From Blastocatellia bacterium (lineage in GTDB: Bacteria; Acidobacteriota; Blastocatellia; Chloracidobacteriales; Chloracidobacteriaceae), in the NCBI GenBank assembly GCA_019695185.1, contig JAIBAN010000012.1, positions 1 to 64,000 of the forward strand: a DNA stretch of 64,000 nucleotides, given 5' to 3'. Shown piece by piece: positions 13,380 to 60,514 of this stretch. Below the pieces are notes generated by a model. It was not told the origin of the DNA, ran no database searches, and worked only from the letters and a program-made list of their open reading frames with translations. A program made the translations under genes and the position numbers. The first letter of the stretch is position 1. The number at the start of each line of letters is the position of its first letter.

Positions 13380-13500
13380 AGGACTGAGGACTGAGGACTG
13401 AGGACTGAGTTTCAAATTCTGACTCCAAGGCAAAATCTGAGTATATGCCCTGCTCTCATCTACTCCTCAGTCCTCAGTCCTGGCGGGTCCTCAGTTCTGG
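13380..13500. repeat. Inverted heptamer element, AGGACTG family
   Basis: The left arm (13380-13409) has four copies of AGGACTG starting one base after the TGA stop. A unique core of about 53 bp follows. The right arm (13463-13500) carries CAGTCCT copies, partly degenerate. It fills the spacer between two convergent genes. Confidence 0.85.
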
Positions 13501-17632: not shown

Positions 17633-20600
17633 CTATTTCCTGCCTGATTTGGGCAGGGATTCGATCACATCCAAAATCTCGTCAAACTGAAACCGGCGGG
17701 TGCGTTGCGCCAGGGCCAGTCCCAACGGCGCATCAAGTTCGGTAATCTGCCCCACCAGTCGGGTAACCCAATCCCCGTCCCCCAGATTCATTGCCTGTTC
17801 AAGTTCGGCCACCAAAGGTTCGGGCAGGGCGGCCAATCGTGAGGCTGGAATCAGTGAAAAATCGTCGGTGTTGGCTGGTTGTGTCTCAGGTTGGGCCGTC
17901 AGGAACCGGACATGCAGGTGTTTTTCAAGCGTGGAAAATATTTCCTCGTTCCGAAACGGCTTGGTCACATAGTCGTCGCAGCCGTTGGCCAGAATCGCCG
18001 CCCGGTCATGTTCAAAGGCGCTGGCCGTGAGGGCAATGATTTTGACCGGGTCCAGGGTCCAGGGTTCAGGGTTCAGGGTTCCTGTCTTCCCTGCACTTCC
18101 AGTTTCTGCCTGAAAAGATTTCAAAACAGGGGATTCAGCCGTATTTTGTAACCCTGGACCCTGAACCCTGGACCCTGAACCCTGCTTTTCCAACTCCCGA
18201 ATCCGGCGGGTCGCGTCATAGCCGTCCATGACCGGCATTCGCATATCCATCCAAATCAGGTGTGGGTGCCAGGTTTGCCAGAGGTCAACCGCTTCCTGCC
18301 CGTTGGCCGCCTCCCGGACTTCACATCCGATGGAACTCAGCAACCGGTTGAGCAAAAGGCGATTGGACGCATTGTCGTCCACCACCAGCAAGCGAACCGG
18401 CGGTTGGTCAGAAGCCAATCGCACCACTTGAGGCAGCGAGCCGGGTTCGGCAACCGGTGCTTCCGCTGCGGGCAAGGGCACCCGAATGTGAAAAACAGTT
18501 CCTTTGCCAAGCTGGCTGCGCACAGTGATTTCCCCACCCATGAGCCGGATGAAATTCTGGCTGAGGGCCAGCCCCAGCCCGGTTCCTTCGGTGGATTGCC
18601 GCCCGCTCTGGGTTTGCACAAACGGCTCAAACAGAGTTTCCAGTTCCTCGGCTGCAATGCCGAAGCCGGTGTCCTCAACTTCGAATTCGGCAATTCCCTC
18701 CACCCATTTGGCCCGCAAGGCAATGCCGCCCTGCGAAGTGAACTTGACGGCATTCCCCAAAAGATTGATGAGTACCTGCCGGAATTTGCCTTCATCGCCC
18801 TGCACGTAGCGCGGCACTTCCGGAGCCAAATCCACAATCAGGGTCAGGTTTTTGCCCGCCGCCCGCACCCGAATCATTTCTTCAATGCCTTTCAACAACC
18901 ACCGCACGTCAAAAGGCTGAGGGCTCAAGGTGATTTTCCCGGCTTCGATTTTGGAAATCGAAAGCACGTCGTTGATAAGCTGGAGCAGATGCTCGCCACT
19001 GCGCAGAATGAGGGACAGATTGTCGCGGTTGTCTCGGCTGAGAGCAGCGTCCCGCTCCATCAACTGGGCGAACCCCAGAACGGCATTGAGCGGGGTCCGT
19101 AGCTCATGGCTCATGCTCGACAGAAAAACGCTTTTGGCCAGATTCGCCGCCTGGGCTTTGTCGGCCAGTTCCAGGGCTTTCTGCTCGGATTCCTGCAATT
19201 GGGCCACGGTATTGGCCAGTTCGGCAGTCCGTTCCCGCACGTTCTGTTCCAACACGCGGGTCTGCTTCCGAAGCGTCCGCAACCGCCAGCGCACCCCACC
19301 GTAAATACAGCCCCCACCGGTCACCACATATAACAGATACGCCCACCACGTCCGCCACAGCGGAGGCTTGAGCCGAAACCGGTAGACGGCCCCGACCCGG
19401 TTCCATACACCGTCGTTGTTACAGGCAATCACCTGAAAGGTGTAATCCCCCGGAGCCAGATTGGTGAAATAGGCAACCCGGCGGGTCACGTCTTCCGACC
19501 AGTCCTGGTCCAGCCCTGTCAGCTTGAACCGGAACCGCACTTTCTCCGGAGCCAAAAAACTCAAGGCCGTGTAATGAAACTCAAATTTGGGACTGCCGGG
19601 GCCGAACACAGTGCGTTCGGCGGGCAAAAATGACTCCGTATCGGCCACCACCTTTTCCAGCCAGACTTCGGGCACCTGCTGGTTCGTCGTAATACGTTCC
19701 GGGTCAACCACCGTCACACCGGCTGTGGTGGGGAACCAGAGCCGCCCATCGCGGGTTTTCCACCCGGCAGGCTGCGAATTTCCATTGCACTGGTTGGTTC
19801 CCATGCCGTCCCCTTTGCCAAACACGGTACAGGGAATGGTCGGAATCGCTTTCCGGTCGTAGTTTTCCACGTCCGCCCGGTTGATGAAATAAATGCCCCG
19901 GTTGCAACTCATCCAAAGATTGTTGCGGTTGTCTTCCAGAATCTGAAACGCAAGGTCATCAAACAGTCCGTCTTTGGTCGTGTAGCAGGTGAATTTCCCA
20001 TTGCGAAACCGGCACAGGCCACCATTGGTGCCAATCCAAAGTGTACGGTCGCTGTCCTCGTAAAAAGTAAACGCCGAATCATTGGCAAGCCCATCTTTCA
20101 TGCCGTAATTTCGGAGAAATTTTCCATCCTGCCAGACTGAAATCCCTCCGTAGGTGCCCACCCATATCCGGCCTTCGCGGTCTTCATAGAGCGCCCGGAC
20201 ACTCTCATGCGGCAATCCGTCCTTGCCGGTAAAGTGCGTAAAGGTTCCGTTCCGATAGGTAAAAAGGCCGCTGCTGACCGTGCCAATCCAGACGGTTCCG
20301 CTCCGGTCCGTGCAGAGTGCCCGCATATTGTTGCCCGTAAAGCCGTCTTTGGCTCCAAACGTCGTAAACGTGCCGTCCTTGAAACGGCATAAATCACCAC
20401 CGGTGACGCCCACCCAAAGGTTTCCTTCGTGGTCTTCGCACAAGGTTTTGACCGAATTGTTGGAAAGCCCGTCTTTGGTTGTGTAGGTGGTGAACTTCCC
20501 GTTTTGCAAACAATTCAGTCCGCCGCTGTCCACTCCAATCCAGAGCCGGCCCCGGCTGTCTTCGCAAATCGTGCGGGCATAATCGAAGGAAAGCCCTTCT

Positions 20601-21604
20601 TTGGTAGTCAAGGAGGTGAATTTTCCATCCCGAAACCGGTTGAGCCCGCCATTGGTACCAGCCCAGAGACTGCCTTCGCGGTCTTCATAAATGGCACGCA
20701 CGGTATCGCTGGAAAGCCCATCCTTGACGGAATAGGCAGAAAAAACCCCATCCCGAAACCGGTACAGTCCGCCGTTCTCAGTTCCAATCCATAAATTACG
20801 GTCTTTGTCTTCCCGAATGGTCCAAATCAGCGTTCCAAGCTGTCCGGCAGCAATTGGATGATTGGTAAAAACCCCGTCCCGATAAGAACAAAGCCCGCCG
20901 CCAAATGTGCCAATCCACAATTGCCCGGCTGAATCTTCAAAAAGAGCGTTGATATTGTCATGGGGAAGTCCGTCTTTGGTGCTGTAGGCCGTCAGATTGC
21001 CATCCCGCAGGGCAAACAGCCCATTTGAAGTACCTACCCAAAGGACGCCCCGACTGTCTTCGAACATCGAATAGACTCTCAGGCTGGGCAATGGGGTTTT
21101 GAATGGGTGGGAATCAAATTTGCCGTCACGAAAAGCACAGACGCCTTTGTTGACGGTGGCAACCCAGACTGTTCCGTGGCGGTCTTCATACAAATACCCA
21201 ATGAAATTATGCGGCAGGCCGTCCTGAGTGGTGTAGGTGCGAAAAACCCCGTTGGAAAAACAGCCGAGGCCGCCGTCCAGCATGGCAATCCAGAGCCTGC
21301 CGGAGCGGTCCTCCAGCAGGGACAAAACGCTTTTCCCCTGCAACCCTTTGGTGTTGCTATTGCTGAAAACGGTGAACCGAACCCCGTCAAACCGGACCAG
21401 CCCTTCATACGTGCCCAGCCACAAATATCCGTCACGGGTCTGGGTTATGGCTGTCACCGTGTTTTGCGGCAGGCCGTCCTGCCACACGTCATGCACATAC
21501 TGTGTCACTGCCTTGGCCGGGTCGAGCGCCCACACCGGGGCTGCTCCGCACATCATCCACCAGCCAAGCAGTATCAGCCAAAATCGGGAAGTGAGGATGC
21601 GCAT
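17633..21604 (-). CDS. Hybrid sensor histidine kinase with propeller-Y_Y_Y sensor and receiver domain
   Basis: The product has 1323 residues. A signal peptide lies at 1-26. About thirteen propeller repeats (GL....V..L.ED..G.LWIGT.GGGL..FRDG.F) fill about 30-690. Y_Y_Y is at about 715-785 and one membrane segment at about 792-812. HisKA has MSHELRTPLN with His833. A HATPase follows (GTGLGLALSQNF), then a receiver whose phosphoacceptor is Asp1120 (WMDMRMPVMDG) and whose Lys is in YVTKPF. A helical C-terminal piece without an obvious HPt His ends it. The receiver carries an insert of about 45 residues (about 1141-1186) encoded by an inverted heptamer element. Membrane phosphorelay is the expected role; no DNA-binding partner is adjacent. 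Upstream DNA is a heptamer element. Confidence 0.93.
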   Translation of the reverse strand: MRILTSRFWLILLGWWMMCGAAPVWALDPAKAVTQYVHDVWQDGLPQNTVTAITQTRDGYLWLGTYEGLVRFDGVRFTVFSNSNTKGLQGKSVLSLLEDRSGRLWIAMLDGGLGCFSNGVFRTYTTQDGLPHNFIGYLYEDRHGTVWVATVNKGVCAFRDGKFDSHPFKTPLPSLRVYSMFEDSRGVLWVGTSNGLFALRDGNLTAYSTKDGLPHDNINALFEDSAGQLWIGTFGGGLCSYRDGVFTNHPIAAGQLGTLIWTIREDKDRNLWIGTENGGLYRFRDGVFSAYSVKDGLSSDTVRAIYEDREGSLWAGTNGGLNRFRDGKFTSLTTKEGLSFDYARTICEDSRGRLWIGVDSGGLNCLQNGKFTTYTTKDGLSNNSVKTLCEDHEGNLWVGVTGGDLCRFKDGTFTTFGAKDGFTGNNMRALCTDRSGTVWIGTVSSGLFTYRNGTFTHFTGKDGLPHESVRALYEDREGRIWVGTYGGISVWQDGKFLRNYGMKDGLANDSAFTFYEDSDRTLWIGTNGGLCRFRNGKFTCYTTKDGLFDDLAFQILEDNRNNLWMSCNRGIYFINRADVENYDRKAIPTIPCTVFGKGDGMGTNQCNGNSQPAGWKTRDGRLWFPTTAGVTVVDPERITTNQQVPEVWLEKVVADTESFLPAERTVFGPGSPKFEFHYTALSFLAPEKVRFRFKLTGLDQDWSEDVTRRVAYFTNLAPGDYTFQVIACNNDGVWNRVGAVYRFRLKPPLWRTWWAYLLYVVTGGGCIYGGVRWRLRTLRKQTRVLEQNVRERTAELANTVAQLQESEQKALELADKAQAANLAKSVFLSSMSHELRTPLNAVLGFAQLMERDAALSRDNRDNLSLILRSGEHLLQLINDVLSISKIEAGKITLSPQPFDVRWLLKGIEEMIRVRAAGKNLTLIVDLAPEVPRYVQGDEGKFRQVLINLLGNAVKFTSQGGIALRAKWVEGIAEFEVEDTGFGIAAEELETLFEPFVQTQSGRQSTEGTGLGLALSQNFIRLMGGEITVRSQLGKGTVFHIRVPLPAAEAPVAEPGSLPQVVRLASDQPPVRLLVVDDNASNRLLLNRLLSSIGCEVREAANGQEAVDLWQTWHPHLIWMDMRMPVMDGYDATRRIRELEKQGSGSRVQGPGLQNTAESPVLKSFQAETGSAGKTGTLNPEPWTLDPVKIIALTASAFEHDRAAILANGCDDYVTKPFRNEEIFSTLEKHLHVRFLTAQPETQPANTDDFSLIPASRLAALPEPLVAELEQAMNLGDGDWVTRLVGQITELDAPLGLALAQRTRRFQFDEILDVIESLPKSGRK
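18047..18184. repeat. Inverted heptamer element inside a coding sequence
   Basis: The left arm (18049-18082) consists of CAGGGTC/CAGGGTT units and the right arm (18150-18184) of AACCCTG/GACCCTG units, inverted, around a 67-bp core. It is read on the minus strand as about 45 in-frame residues between ..RELEKQ and VKIIALTAS of the receiver. The coding arm reads CCC TGG ACC, where an unmutated repeat would read CCC TGA ACC. Confidence 0.9.
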
Positions 21605-21619
21605 AACAAAATCAGTGAT

Positions 21620-21747
21620 GAGGACTGAGGACTGAGGACTGAGGACTGAAAATTCAGGACCGCGAGCTGAGTTTTCATCATTTACCTGAAAAATTGAAGT
21701 CAGCCAAGCTGATTTTCTCAGTCCTCAGTCCTCAGTCCTCAGTCCTG
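21620..21747. repeat. Inverted heptamer element, AGGACTG family
   Basis: The left arm (21620-21649) has four AGGACTG units. The core is about 67 bp. The right arm (21717-21747) has about four CAGTCCT units and ends 5 bases before the M28 gene stop. It occupies the whole spacer upstream of the hybrid kinase. Confidence 0.9.
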
Positions 21748-23308: not shown

Positions 23309-23492
23309 CAGGGTTGAGGGTTGAGGGTTCAGAATTCAGAGTTCAGGACCTGGAGTTTTGAATTTTGAGATGTGCGTTTTACGTCAGAGGCAATTCGAAT
23401 TTTTCAAGATTTTGAGAATCGAAAACCCTGAACCCTGAACCCTGAACCCTGAACCCTGAACCCTGAACCCTGAACCCTGAATCCCGAACCCT
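23309..23492. repeat. Inverted heptamer element, CAGGGTT family
   Basis: The left arm (23309-23348) has AGGGTTG/AGGGTTC units that decay into AGAATTC-like copies. The core is about 75 bp. The right arm (23424-23492) carries about nine AACCCTG units. It ends about 9 bases before the AGGAGG Shine-Dalgarno of the next gene, in a divergent spacer that must also hold the promoters. I could not pick a convincing promoter here. Confidence 0.9.
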
Positions 23493-23514: not shown

Positions 23515-24732
23515 ATGATTCAACCGGCTGCGCGGACACGCAACTATAACTATGCGATTCGAAACATTGTGGTGGAAGCCAAGAAAGTCGAAGCTTCCGG
23601 CAAAAAAATCACCTATCTCAACATTGGCGACCCGGTGATTTACGGCTTTCAACCGCCCGAATCGCTGATGAATGCCCTGGCGAAAGCGGTTCATGACGGA
23701 TTGAACGGCTATGCCCCTTCGGCTGGTACGGTCGAAGCCCGTGAGGCCATCGCCGCCGACTCTGAAAAATACGGCGTCCCGATTTCCCCTGACGATGTGA
23801 TTGTCACTTCCGGGGCGTCGGAAGCGGCGGATTTGGTGCTCAATGCCCTGCTCGAACCGGGCGACGACGTTTTAACGCCCTGCCCGACCTATCCGCTGTA
23901 TACGGCCATCACCGCCAAACTGGGAGCCACGGAAAATTCCTACAAACTGGATCCCAAAAATGGCTGGCTGCCTGACCCCGATGACATCAGACGACGCGTT
24001 ACTCCCCGAACCCGTGCCATTGTGATTATCAATCCGAACAATCCGTCCGGTGCGGTGTATCCCGAACCGGTTTTGCGTGAACTGCTGGCTGTGGCGGCTG
24101 AAAAAAACCTGCTGGTCATGGCCGACGATGTGTATCACCGCATGACCTACGGGCCGCACGCACCCCGACTAGCTTCCCTGGCACAGGATATGGACGTTCC
24201 GATTGTCAACCTGGAGAGCCTCTCGAAATCCCATTTGGTTCCCGGCTGGCGGGTCGGCTGGATGACTTTCACCAATAAGAAACAGATGGGTGATTTGATT
24301 CCGGCGGTCCGCAAAATAGCCGACGCCCGTTTGTGCAGCCCACTGCCCACTCAGGCGGTGATTCCGGCGGCGCTTGCGGACCTCTCGCATTTACCCGCTA
24401 CGATTGAGGCCATGAAAGTCCGGGCCGACATCAGCGTTGACATGCTCAACGCCATTCCGGGGATGAATTGCACCCGTCCGGAAGCCGCCTTTTATCTGAT
24501 GGCGCAGATGGAAAACCTGCACGGGGCGACCGACGAACAGTTTGTGCTGGAACTGCTGCGGGAGACCGGGATTTTATTTGTTTATGGCTCCGGGTTTGGA
24601 CTTGAACCGACGGACGGATATTTCCGTATCGTGTTCTTGCCTGAACCCGAAGTTCTCCGGGATGTCTATACCAGGCTGGGCAATTTCGTTGAATCCTGGC
24701 CGCACCGTGCGCGTCAGCAAGCAGCATCCTAG
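23515..24732 (+). CDS. PLP-dependent class I/II aminotransferase, alanine-transaminase-like
   Basis: The product has 405 residues and is a fold-type I enzyme. The Schiff-base Lys is 238 in ESLSKSHLVPGWRVGW, the phosphate-binding Arg is 246, Asn176 is in NPNNPSG and Asp204 in MADDVY. The N-terminal half (YLNIGDP, GYAPSAGTVEAREAIA, CPTYPLY) is closest in style to AlaA/YfbQ-like alanine-pyruvate transaminases, but substrate cannot be fixed by eye. ATG 23515 is preceded by CAGGAGGTCA, a strong Shine-Dalgarno. The TAG stop lies within the first unit of the following heptamer array. Confidence 0.9.
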   Translation: MIQPAARTRNYNYAIRNIVVEAKKVEASGKKITYLNIGDPVIYGFQPPESLMNALAKAVHDGLNGYAPSAGTVEAREAIAADSEKYGVPISPDDVIVTSGASEAADLVLNALLEPGDDVLTPCPTYPLYTAITAKLGATENSYKLDPKNGWLPDPDDIRRRVTPRTRAIVIINPNNPSGAVYPEPVLRELLAVAAEKNLLVMADDVYHRMTYGPHAPRLASLAQDMDVPIVNLESLSKSHLVPGWRVGWMTFTNKKQMGDLIPAVRKIADARLCSPLPTQAVIPAALADLSHLPATIEAMKVRADISVDMLNAIPGMNCTRPEAAFYLMAQMENLHGATDEQFVLELLRETGILFVYGSGFGLEPTDGYFRIVFLPEPEVLRDVYTRLGNFVESWPHRARQQAAS

Positions 24733-24850
24733 CTTTCAGCTTTCAGCTTTCAGCTTTCAGCTTTGCCGTTTGACCCCATCAACCATGGTTCTTCCTCAGA
24801 AATTCATGAGGATCCGGTAAAGAGCTGAAAGCTGAGTGCTGAACGCTCAC
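24731..24850. repeat. Inverted heptamer element, AGCTTTC family
   Basis: The left arm (24731-24765) has five AGCTTTC units beginning inside the stop codon. The core is about 55 bp. The right arm (about 24821-24850) carries GCTGAAA-like units, the inverted form, degenerating into GTGCTGAACGCTCA. Confidence 0.85.
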
Positions 24851-26860: not shown

Positions 26861-27034
26861 GGACTGAGGATTGAGGACTGAGCCGACCAATCTTCCGATG
26901 ACTTTAGAATTCTTCACATAACTCTGCTTCCGCGTGGAAAGATTCCCATACAGAATTATGGAAATCTGCACCAAACTTCCTTAATATGGCTCTTGCTCAG
27001 TCCTCAGTCCTCAGTCCTCAGTCCTCAGTCCTCA
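26861..27034. repeat. Inverted heptamer element, GGACTGA family
   Basis: The left arm (26861-26883) has three units, one mutated to GGATTGA. The core is about 112 bp. The right arm (26996-27034) has five TCAGTCC units and ends 7 bases before the next ATG. There is therefore no room for a normal Shine-Dalgarno outside the repeat. Confidence 0.88.
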
Positions 27035-30938: not shown

Positions 30939-31027
30939 AGGACTGAGGACTGAGGACTGAGAGAAAAGTAAGCCCTCCCTTACGGTTGGGGTTCTGCTTC
31001 AGTCCTCAGTCCTCAGTCCTCAGTCCT
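30939..31027. repeat. Inverted heptamer element, AGGACTG family
   Basis: The left arm (30939-30963) has three AGGACTG units, 8 bases after the tRNA. The core is about 35 bp. The right arm (30999-31027) has four CAGTCCT units that run into the proS stop codon. It separates the convergent tRNA and proS. Confidence 0.9.
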
Positions 31028-32831: not shown

Positions 32832-32946
32832 TAGGGTTCACGGTTCAGGGTTCAGGGTTCTAGATTTTCGAATATCGGAAACTTGCGCTACAGATTGGAT
32901 TTCAAATCAAAAAACCTTGAACCCTGAACCCTGAACCCTGAACCCG
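32832..32946. repeat. Inverted heptamer element, CAGGGTT family
   Basis: The left arm (32832-32861) has CAGGGTT copies with one CACGGTT. The core is about 50 bp. The right arm (32912-32946) has four to five AACCCTG units. It lies in the divergent proS-lon spacer just upstream of the lon promoter. Confidence 0.88.
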
Positions 32947-40202: not shown

Positions 40203-40350
40203 GTTCAGGGTTCAGGGTTCAGGGTTCAGGGTTTTCAAGTTTTGAGAAATCAGTAGGTGTCGGGCAGTCAATCAAGCCTTTCTCAATTCCAGAGTTCTCA
40301 ATTCTCAATTATAAAAACCCTGAACCCTGAACCCTGAACCCTGAACCCTT
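40203..40350. repeat. Inverted heptamer element, CAGGGTT family
   Basis: The left arm (40203-40234) has four TTCAGGG units, one base after the coaD stop. The core is about 79 bp. The right arm (40314-40350) has four to five AACCCTG units running straight into the GAAAGGAA Shine-Dalgarno of the next gene. Confidence 0.9.
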
Positions 40351-49097: not shown

Positions 49098-50468
49098 ATG
49101 AAAAACTGTCTCTTTATTTTATTGGGGTGTCTGTTTCTGGTCTGCCTGCCGGTACCGGCCTGGGGGCAAAAACGCATCCCGGTTTTTATGGGTCGGACAA
49201 ACGCCCCGCCGCCCAAACCACGGGTTGGGAAAGGTAATTTGGCCATTCTCACCACTCCCGCCGGGGCTGAAGTTTTTATTGACGGAAAGAGTCTGGGACG
49301 GACGGACGAAAACGGGTCCATGGTGCTGGAATTTACCCCTGGCTCCCCCCACAAGGTCGAAGTCAAAGCCGAAGACTACGAAGGATTTACCACCACCTAC
49401 AAACCGGTTTCCGACAAAACCGAGCCAATTGTGGCCCGGCTGGTGGCGAAATATGCCAATCTGGTTTTGGCTGGCATTCCGGAAAAGTCCGCTATCTTTC
49501 TGGACGGCGCTCCCCCGCCGCTGGACCGAATGGTGGTGGAAGGCAAGCAAATCACCATCAATCGGGTGCCAACCGGAGCGCATACTGTCCGCATTGAACA
49601 TCCGGACTGGATGCTTTGGGAAGGCAAGACCGAGGTGAAACCCGATGCACCGGACGGCAACGTGGTCACCCCGCCACTGGTGCTGGCCGTGGTCAAAGTG
49701 ACCATCGACTCAACGGTTGGGGCAACGGTCTATGTTGACGATGTGGACCGGGGAACCGTAACACCTGACGGCAAACTGGTCATCCCGAACGTGCGTCCCG
49801 GAATGCGCACGGTGCGGGTGGTCAAAGACGATTATGAAGACTGGAAAAACACCGACACTTTTACTGTTGGAATTGAAAAAACGATTAAAGCCGAGCTGAC
49901 CCCGATACCGGCTTCGGCTGAATTCAATGACCGCTTCACTGCTGGGCTGGGAAAATGGGATGCCCCTGCCGGTTGGTCCGCCGTCAAGGGGTTGACCGTC
50001 AAAGGCGAAGGAACCGGGTTGCCCCACGACAAGGTGTATCGTGATTTTGATGTGGATTTTGACCTTCAGCTTTTGAACGGCAAAGGGGCGGTGTGGGTAC
50101 TTCGGACCCGCAACGGCAAAGGCTATCTGTTTTACCTGGGAGGACCAGCCGGCAAATACAAAAATGTCTTTCGCGGCTATTTGTTGGAAAACAATCAGTT
50201 TGACCCGGAAAAACCGGTGGATGACCAACCGGTGCTGACCAATTTGCAGGCCAACATTTACTATCACGTCCACATTGAAGTCCGAGGCAACAAGTTCTCC
50301 CAATTGCTGATTCCAAGCAGTGGTCCAGATGCCGGAAAAGAAATTCCGCTCACCTTTTATGAAGACCCCAGGAACTCGGTTCGGCTCGGCAATGTCGGGT
50401 TCCGGACCCTCTCCGGTGAGGAATTTCAGGTCAATGCCTTTTTCATCAAACCGCAGGACAGGAAATAG
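49098..50468 (+). CDS. Secreted PEGA-domain protein with C-terminal LamG/DUF1080-like domain
   Basis: The product has 456 residues from ATG 49098, which starts the signal peptide MKNCLFILLGCLFLVCLPVPAWG; the frame from 49032 is the tail of the intergenic DNA. Three PEGA-like repeats follow (NLAILTTPAGAEVFIDGKSLG; ANLVLAGIPEKSAIFLDG; KVTIDSTVGATVYVDDVDRG) at about 45-275. The last 170 residues (EFNDRFTAGLGKWDAPAGWSAVKG ... VWVLRTRNGKGYLFYLGGP) look like a concanavalin-type sugar-binding fold. PEGA domains are common beside bacterial STKs. It lies 66 bases after the STK-FGE gene, so it is likely cotranscribed and may act with its outer domain. The stop is inside a heptamer arm. Confidence 0.88.
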   Translation: MKNCLFILLGCLFLVCLPVPAWGQKRIPVFMGRTNAPPPKPRVGKGNLAILTTPAGAEVFIDGKSLGRTDENGSMVLEFTPGSPHKVEVKAEDYEGFTTTYKPVSDKTEPIVARLVAKYANLVLAGIPEKSAIFLDGAPPPLDRMVVEGKQITINRVPTGAHTVRIEHPDWMLWEGKTEVKPDAPDGNVVTPPLVLAVVKVTIDSTVGATVYVDDVDRGTVTPDGKLVIPNVRPGMRTVRVVKDDYEDWKNTDTFTVGIEKTIKAELTPIPASAEFNDRFTAGLGKWDAPAGWSAVKGLTVKGEGTGLPHDKVYRDFDVDFDLQLLNGKGAVWVLRTRNGKGYLFYLGGPAGKYKNVFRGYLLENNQFDPEKPVDDQPVLTNLQANIYYHVHIEVRGNKFSQLLIPSSGPDAGKEIPLTFYEDPRNSVRLGNVGFRTLSGEEFQVNAFFIKPQDRK

Positions 50469-50616
50469 GGTTCAGGGTTCAGGGTCTTTTGAATTGAGAA
50501 TTGACAATTGACAATTGACAAGTAAAACCCATTGAGAACTTCAAATCTCCTGATATTCGAAAACCCTGAACCCTGAACCCTGAACCCTGAACCCTGAACC
50601 CTGAACCCTGAACCCT
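50467..50616. repeat. Inverted heptamer element, CAGGGTT family
   Basis: The left arm (50467-50486) has nearly three GGGTTCA units overlapping the TAG stop. The core is about 74 bp and includes three copies of TTGACAA. The right arm (50561-50616) has eight AACCCTG units, the last overlapping the TAG stop of the opposite gene. Confidence 0.92.
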
Positions 50617-57732: not shown

Positions 57733-57913
57733 CATTTGCCATTTGCCATTTGCCATTTGCCATTTGCCATTTGCCATTTGCCATTTGCCATTTGCCATTT
57801 GGAAAACAGTTGTTCTTTGGTGACACATTGTCAAGGGGCAAACCATACTGAAATATGCACATAGCCATTTGAGTGGGTTCAATTTGCAAATCACAAATGG
57901 CAAATCGCAAATG
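57733..57913. repeat. Inverted heptamer element, CATTTGC family
   Basis: The left arm (57733-57801) is almost ten perfect CATTTGC units starting two bases after the stop. The core is about 81 bp. The right arm (57883-57913) has GCAAATG/GCAAATC units, inverted and degenerate, ending 4 bases before the opposing gene's stop. The left arm is the longest perfect array in the window. Confidence 0.93.
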
Positions 57914-60373: not shown

Positions 60374-60378
60374 CTTTT

Positions 60379-60514
60379 TCAGGGTTCAGGGTTCAGGGTT
60401 CAGGGTTCAGGGTTCAGGGTTTAAAGATTTTTAGGACAACGGCCAAACGAATGAAACTTTCTTCCAATCCGTTTCCCAAATTCCAAAACCCTGAACCCTG
60501 AACCCTGAACCCTG
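60379..60514. repeat. Inverted heptamer element, CAGGGTT family
   Basis: The left arm (60379-60422) has six CAGGGTT units about 6 bases upstream of the lptFG start codon. The core is about 63 bp. The right arm (60486-60514) has four AACCCTG units just after the M16 gene stop. Confidence 0.92.

Follow-up and report, generated by a model that had tools for sequence, protein, structure and literature searches.

Inverted heptamer-array elements read in frame in the receiver loop of hybrid histidine kinases from a Blastocatellia bacterium

How can non-coding repeat DNA become part of a folded protein domain without destroying it? This question is raised by a hybrid histidine kinase, P0001, encoded in the window, that is, the whole stretch of 64,000 nucleotides analysed, which comes from contig C78 of genome G000 (8.33 Mb, 222 contigs). 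P0001 is an open frame of 1323 amino acids on the reverse strand (17633-21604), in which a Pfam scan identified a Reg_prop propeller, Y_Y_Y, HisKA, HATPase_c and a receiver. The original prediction was that about 45 extra residues, located at 1141-1186 between the helix ending in RELEKQ and the strand IIALTAS, interrupt the receiver, and that their DNA is an inverted CAGGGTT element of the intergenic plan. The extra residues are indeed present, but alignment with 20 homologous receivers places their boundaries at 1142-1187 (18044-18181, reverse strand). The insert thus comprises 46 amino acids in the alpha3-beta4 loop, flanked by ...RELEKQ and KIIALTAS. The spacing of 73 residues from Asp1120 to the conserved Thr is as predicted, the Thr being T1193. 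In 27 homologous receivers of other phyla the corresponding loop most often has 17 residues, and the same count gives 60 in P0001.

The receiver occupies approximately residues 1070-1230 (17915-18397, reverse strand). The match to PF00072 (Response_reg) covers residues 1073-1141 (E 4.4e-22 for the protein) and ends where the insert starts, which cuts it short. Asp1120, Thr1193 and Lys1215 are all retained, so that both the Pfam match and the conserved residues assign the domain to the receivers. Modelling of the receiver, which the original prediction had proposed, was performed by AlphaFold2 with the P0001 receiver and 19 relatives as input. The receiver fold was kept with high confidence despite the insert, and the insert was disordered, with block-mean pLDDT values of 42-53 at its centre (model residues 81-110). 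The closest PDB structure to the model was the GacS D1 receiver (7qz2), with a target-normalised TM value of 0.91. The model and this match show the (beta-alpha)5 fold of receivers.

The ends of the insert are two facing arrays of about five heptamers each. In the reading direction, the 5' arm consists of five CAGGGTT/CAGGGTC units (18150-18184, reverse strand) and is open in every frame, and the 3' arm consists of AACCCTG/GACCCTG units (18048-18081, reverse strand). The arms pair at 94% across 33 nt, and the RNA of the insert is predicted to fold into a long hairpin, at -83.2 kcal/mol and with a z of -7.4 relative to 200 shuffles. Thus, the insert is a genuine in-frame copy with the plan and units of the intergenic elements, as had been claimed. 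The spacer between the arms (18082-18149, reverse strand) is single copy in G000, and a search for its donor in G000, G001 and G003 found none; this exact element is therefore untraceable to a donor. Neither an Rfam search of the window nor phage records gave a match to the element.

Elements of this plan are dispersed in the window (they are given here without strand). Intergenic inverted elements of the CAGGGTT/AACCCTG family lie at 23310-23492, 32835-32945, 40203-40349 and 60378-60514, and those of an AGGACTG family lie at 13380-13481, 30939-31027 and 21619-21746, the last of which adjoins the start of P0001. A composite element with outer CAGGGTT and inner AATTGAC-type arrays is located at 50467-50616. 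At 57733-57913, ten copies of CATTTGC form an array opposite a shorter one of GCAAATG type, and this pair represents another heptamer family of the same plan. Single arrays with no detected partner arm occur at 24731-24764 (AGCTTTC) and 26996-27034 (CTCAGTC).

The array statistics of G000 are based on about 2 Mb sampled out of 8.33 Mb. A sample of 1.2 Mb, made up of contiguous pieces of seven large contigs that were neither random nor chosen for kinases, contained 499 arrays. The period was seven in 395 of these, a tandem repeat in many copies as in heptamer simple sequence repeats, and nine in 58. Another sample of 805 kb, which includes kinase-rich stretches and overlaps the former by 400 kb, contained 346 short arrays. 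Shuffling of the sampled genome at the mononucleotide level yielded zero arrays. Runs of three AACCCTG units were abundant in G000 and in G003, a genome of the same family and another genus, and a search of eight further genomes of this family found none. Small samples of two of these, G002 and G005, had no arrays of any unit, and G001 had arrays of other units, including the nonamer AAGACTCCC.

The arrays of the AGGACTG family have a fixed form. In this family 110 of 149 arrays begin in one register. The arm length seen most often is 30 nt, which corresponds to four units plus AG. Convergent pairs number 74, and no pair has the reverse arrangement. At unrelated sites, three pairs of elements were found whose members are homologous along both the arms and the spacer, with two of the pairs in inverted relative orientation; beyond the outer array edges the likeness ceases. 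In two families a composite core is conserved, and one of these families includes the element at 50467-50616. The majority of spacers are dissimilar from one another. These results show that the inverted arrays are discrete dispersed elements and not the product of slippage alone; the dispersal holds for the intergenic families tested.

Arrays were found at the same receiver loop in other kinases. In G000 they are present in the kinases on C78 (the window), C108 and C34 as AACCCTG heptamers and in those on C180 and C41 as the nonamer AAGACTCCC, and a kinase on C54 of G003 has a one-arm remnant there. The inserts differ between kinases outside the arms. In a tree built from the kinase core and neighbouring residues with the loop excluded, the six array-bearing rows need six changes. 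The C180, C41 and C108 kinases are sisters of the G003 kinases L063 (98/88), L069 (99/97) and L077 (93/74), respectively, none of which has arrays; this orthology is based on the tree, not on synteny. The grouping of the window and C108 kinases as a single clade was rejected (p 2e-59). The relatives were also searched for an unrelated but conserved loop of equal length, and none was found: the length of the alpha3-beta4 loop ranges between 17 and about 100 residues, and the short form is common among them. It is well supported that at least four further G000 kinases received related elements in this loop after those kinases had diverged. The prediction that such arrays can enter genes is confirmed, with repeated entry into one loop of sister kinases.

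Long loops are also found in cyanobacteria. Two kinases of Microseira wollei have repeat-derived inserts at the same loop; one contains a doubled unit with a palindrome that occurs 20 times in that genome, and the other contains an 8-nt array. Among the Microseira kinases, L321 (G039:C200) has a loop 57 residues long, in which an 8-nt GACGCGGC-type array occurs together with a doubled unit that encodes SAWEPH. The Microseira inserts indicate, in a sample of two genes, that the hotspot is not limited to one phylum. Two Nostoc kinases (L330 and L331) share a homologous insert of 101 residues in this loop that is not array-like, and this is an older, conserved insert.

How, then, do such elements avoid the stop codons of their own sequence? 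A perfect AACCCTG array translates as NPEP*TL whichever frame is used, and its complement, CAGGGTT, translates as QGSGFRV and is free of stops in all three frames. The claim that a perfect AACCCTG array always meets TGA is therefore correct, with the refinement that the opposite reading, CAGGGTT, does not, and only one arm required a stop-free variant. The predicted CCCTGGA variant is present: the frame of P0001 is open because its one in-frame TGA is TGG (Trp1182, 18059-18061, reverse strand). The stop is avoided in all four coding right arms, by TGG in the window and C108 and by CGA in C34 and in C54 of G003.

Among the AACCCTG junctions sampled between genes in G000, 172 of 209 were TGAA, 22 were TGGA and one was CGA; the junctions of G003 were TGAA in 127 of 145 and CGAA in 15. 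The readable variant thus matches the pool of its own genome in three of the four cases, namely, the window and C108 (TGG) and C54 of G003 (CGA). The exception is the C34 copy, whose CGA is rare in the G000 pool. The original prediction held that the element either was recent and had lost its stops through changes or had been selected for readability. The two are not true alternatives, since TGG-type junctions already exist between genes; a readable copy could have come ready-made, and only readable copies survive. Because stop avoidance is needed for survival, these data show filtering and not a separate adaptation.

We then asked how often arrays lie inside genes. Genes were called by our own open-frame scoring, and arrays near gene starts were left out of the insertion count in the 805 kb sample. 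In 1.2 Mb of G000 about 6-8 heptamer or nonamer array loci lay within genes, which extrapolates to roughly 40-55 in the whole genome. Five of these are in a single loop within a group of about a dozen kinases, far above even placement. Other arrays within genes were located in a TPR-CHAT linker, an HTH-TPR linker and propeller segments of two kinases; those whose frame was inspected were in an open reading or were nonamers. A locus on C86 (L057, 10058-10166) has heptamer and nonamer arrays within the HATPase_c of another hybrid kinase, a position more surprising than a linker. An open frame of 3356 residues on C72 (about 197528-200762; L234, L235) carries three array insertions, with AAGACTCCC, ACTGCGG and AACCCTG units.

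In receivers generally, the loops that lead from an alpha helix to a beta strand face away from the active site. The excess in this loop is explicable by tolerance without targeting, because the length of the loop is naturally variable and it belongs to these loops. We think it probable that hairpin repeat elements have been domesticated in frame, and recurrently, in a permissive receiver loop. The source would be short hairpin elements resident in the genome, in which a spacer of about 30-140 nt separates inverted tandem arrays of heptamers or nonamers. A copy that entered the alpha3-beta4 loop of such a receiver without breaking the frame would be translated as a disordered surface loop of the hybrid kinase, while the conserved Asp, Thr and Lys remain. 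The main reason for the loop being a hotspot may be its position on the face of the receiver away from the phosphorylation site, where insertions would be tolerated and readable ones would survive. Since similar elements entered the loops of sister genes several times, the loop can be regarded as a hotspot for repeat DNA becoming protein. It is rather improbable that the loop is actively favoured as a landing site, through machinery of the elements or conversion among paralogues, with the elements generating diversity of sensor-kinase loops in more than one phylum.

Independent and fairly recent arrival is the simplest account of the copies, and gene conversion is possible for the window and C108 pair. 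The 3' junctions of the window, C108 and C34 are identical (AAC or GAC, CCN, GTN) and have the same reading frame, and the window and C108 copies closely resemble each other over 20-40 nt at their junctions, as would be expected if one or two insertions had been followed by gene conversion among paralogous receivers. We nevertheless consider this course unlikely as a whole: the flanking receiver halves of the window and C108 are just 67-69% identical in a codon alignment, so that there was no long conversion tract, and the heptamer and nonamer copies still require separate arrivals. One insertion in an ancestor of the kinase family, kept repeat-like by slippage and repair and lost where the loop is short, is quite improbable. 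Several members do have long loops without arrays at the same place (L050 and L071, which share theirs, and L040 on C213, whose loop contains LNPEP and could mean an older ancestral insert), and parsimony alone cannot separate gain from loss. Against this, the array-bearing rows are scattered, mostly beside an array-free row, their units differ (7 versus 9 nt), and the window and C108 do not form one clade. Moreover, the right arms of these two differ at 2 of 38 bases (compared by eye), whereas their coding DNA in kinase and receiver is 61-69% identical; the preservation of near-identical arms in such genes is implausible.

Two further explanations concern what the insert might do. If the array were a switch of phase variation, gain or loss of heptamers would shift the frame and remove the end of the receiver. 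Adding or removing one or two heptamers in one arm or the other would indeed introduce a stop, at a point between residues 1152 and 1211, and the frame would survive the loss of three. Against such a switch, the imperfect units (alternation of TT and TC) damp slippage and nonamer copies are unable to shift the frame, and it would have very little probability. The clustering of the insertions in one receiver subfamily rich in paralogues would suit a loop that evolved as a functional device, for example, one that insulates a phosphorelay from its paralogues. This is very unlikely, given that the loop sequence is not conserved among paralogues and is predicted to be disordered. Recurrent domestication thus remains the explanation that we prefer.

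How the elements move was examined with the intergenic families. In 56 elements of the AGGACTG family no target-site duplication of at least 3 bases was found (shuffles gave 0.6 at 3 bases). The transposase search, which covered Y1_Tnp, yielded no enzyme assignable to the elements. A RAYT (Y1_Tnp) as the mover was rejected, because Y1_Tnp is present in 16 of 16 genomes searched, even those without AACCCTG arrays, and its neighbourhoods are mostly array-free. A heptamer array lay within 1 kb of Y1_Tnp at one of eight loci examined in G000 and at one of seven in G003. That is, the elements do not flank a RAYT-type Y1 transposase gene as REPs and REPINs do.

The locus offers a clean natural case in which non-coding repeat DNA became protein. 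This happened more than once at the same structural position in sister genes, and the problem of the stop codon was solved in two ways, by TGG and by CGA. Heptamer arrays are commonly classed as simple repeats that arise by slippage; the present results show that they can also form the arms of elements that are discrete and dispersed, so that their mode of movement becomes testable.

Several known repeats resemble these elements in part. MITEs and REPINs are likewise short and non-coding, with inverted ends and many dispersed copies (PMC10969869, PMC3116915). The MITE-like combination of inverted ends with several copies that have sharp edges and lie at unrelated sites is shown for our intergenic families rather than for the window copy; unlike MITEs and REPINs, our elements had no target-site duplication and, in the Y1_Tnp search, no linked RAYT-type transposase. 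The cyanobacterial heptamer repeats (STRR) and the TAACTGA repeat of Beggiatoaceae have a period of seven, many copies and a preference for intergenic regions, and one strand has stops in all frames while the other is open, as here (PMC4679880). TAACTGA differs in that it forms direct repeats with one indirect case, and its copies in genes are mostly at protein ends (PMC4679880). The GGGAATC repeats of Xanthomonas are heptamer arrays, mainly intergenic and with 70-75 cases of two facing arrays, which resembles our case; their unit is different, and the available part of that source discusses G-quadruplexes rather than mobility (PMC4692102). In G000 many units coexist, the register and arm length of one family are fixed, and copies with homologous spacers show dispersal.

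The closest parallel is found in the Rickettsia palindromic elements, palindromes of about 150 bp that occur in frame in unrelated protein genes and are apparently compatible with the protein fold, as described in a review (Ogata et al. 2000, 2002; PMC10969869). The P0001 insert is likewise a palindromic element in frame in a protein gene. The Rickettsia families have a conserved sequence and encode a conserved peptide (PMC10969869). Here, no such conservation extends over the whole length: the arms alone are shared and are tandem heptamers or nonamers, the spacer differs and is single copy in P0001, the inserts differ outside the arms, and the same loop is hit repeatedly. The P0001 element thus resembles the Rickettsia palindromic elements in its working but is not a member of them. 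What is new relative to the known coding palindromic elements is the combination of heptamer-array arms with a recurrent landing loop.
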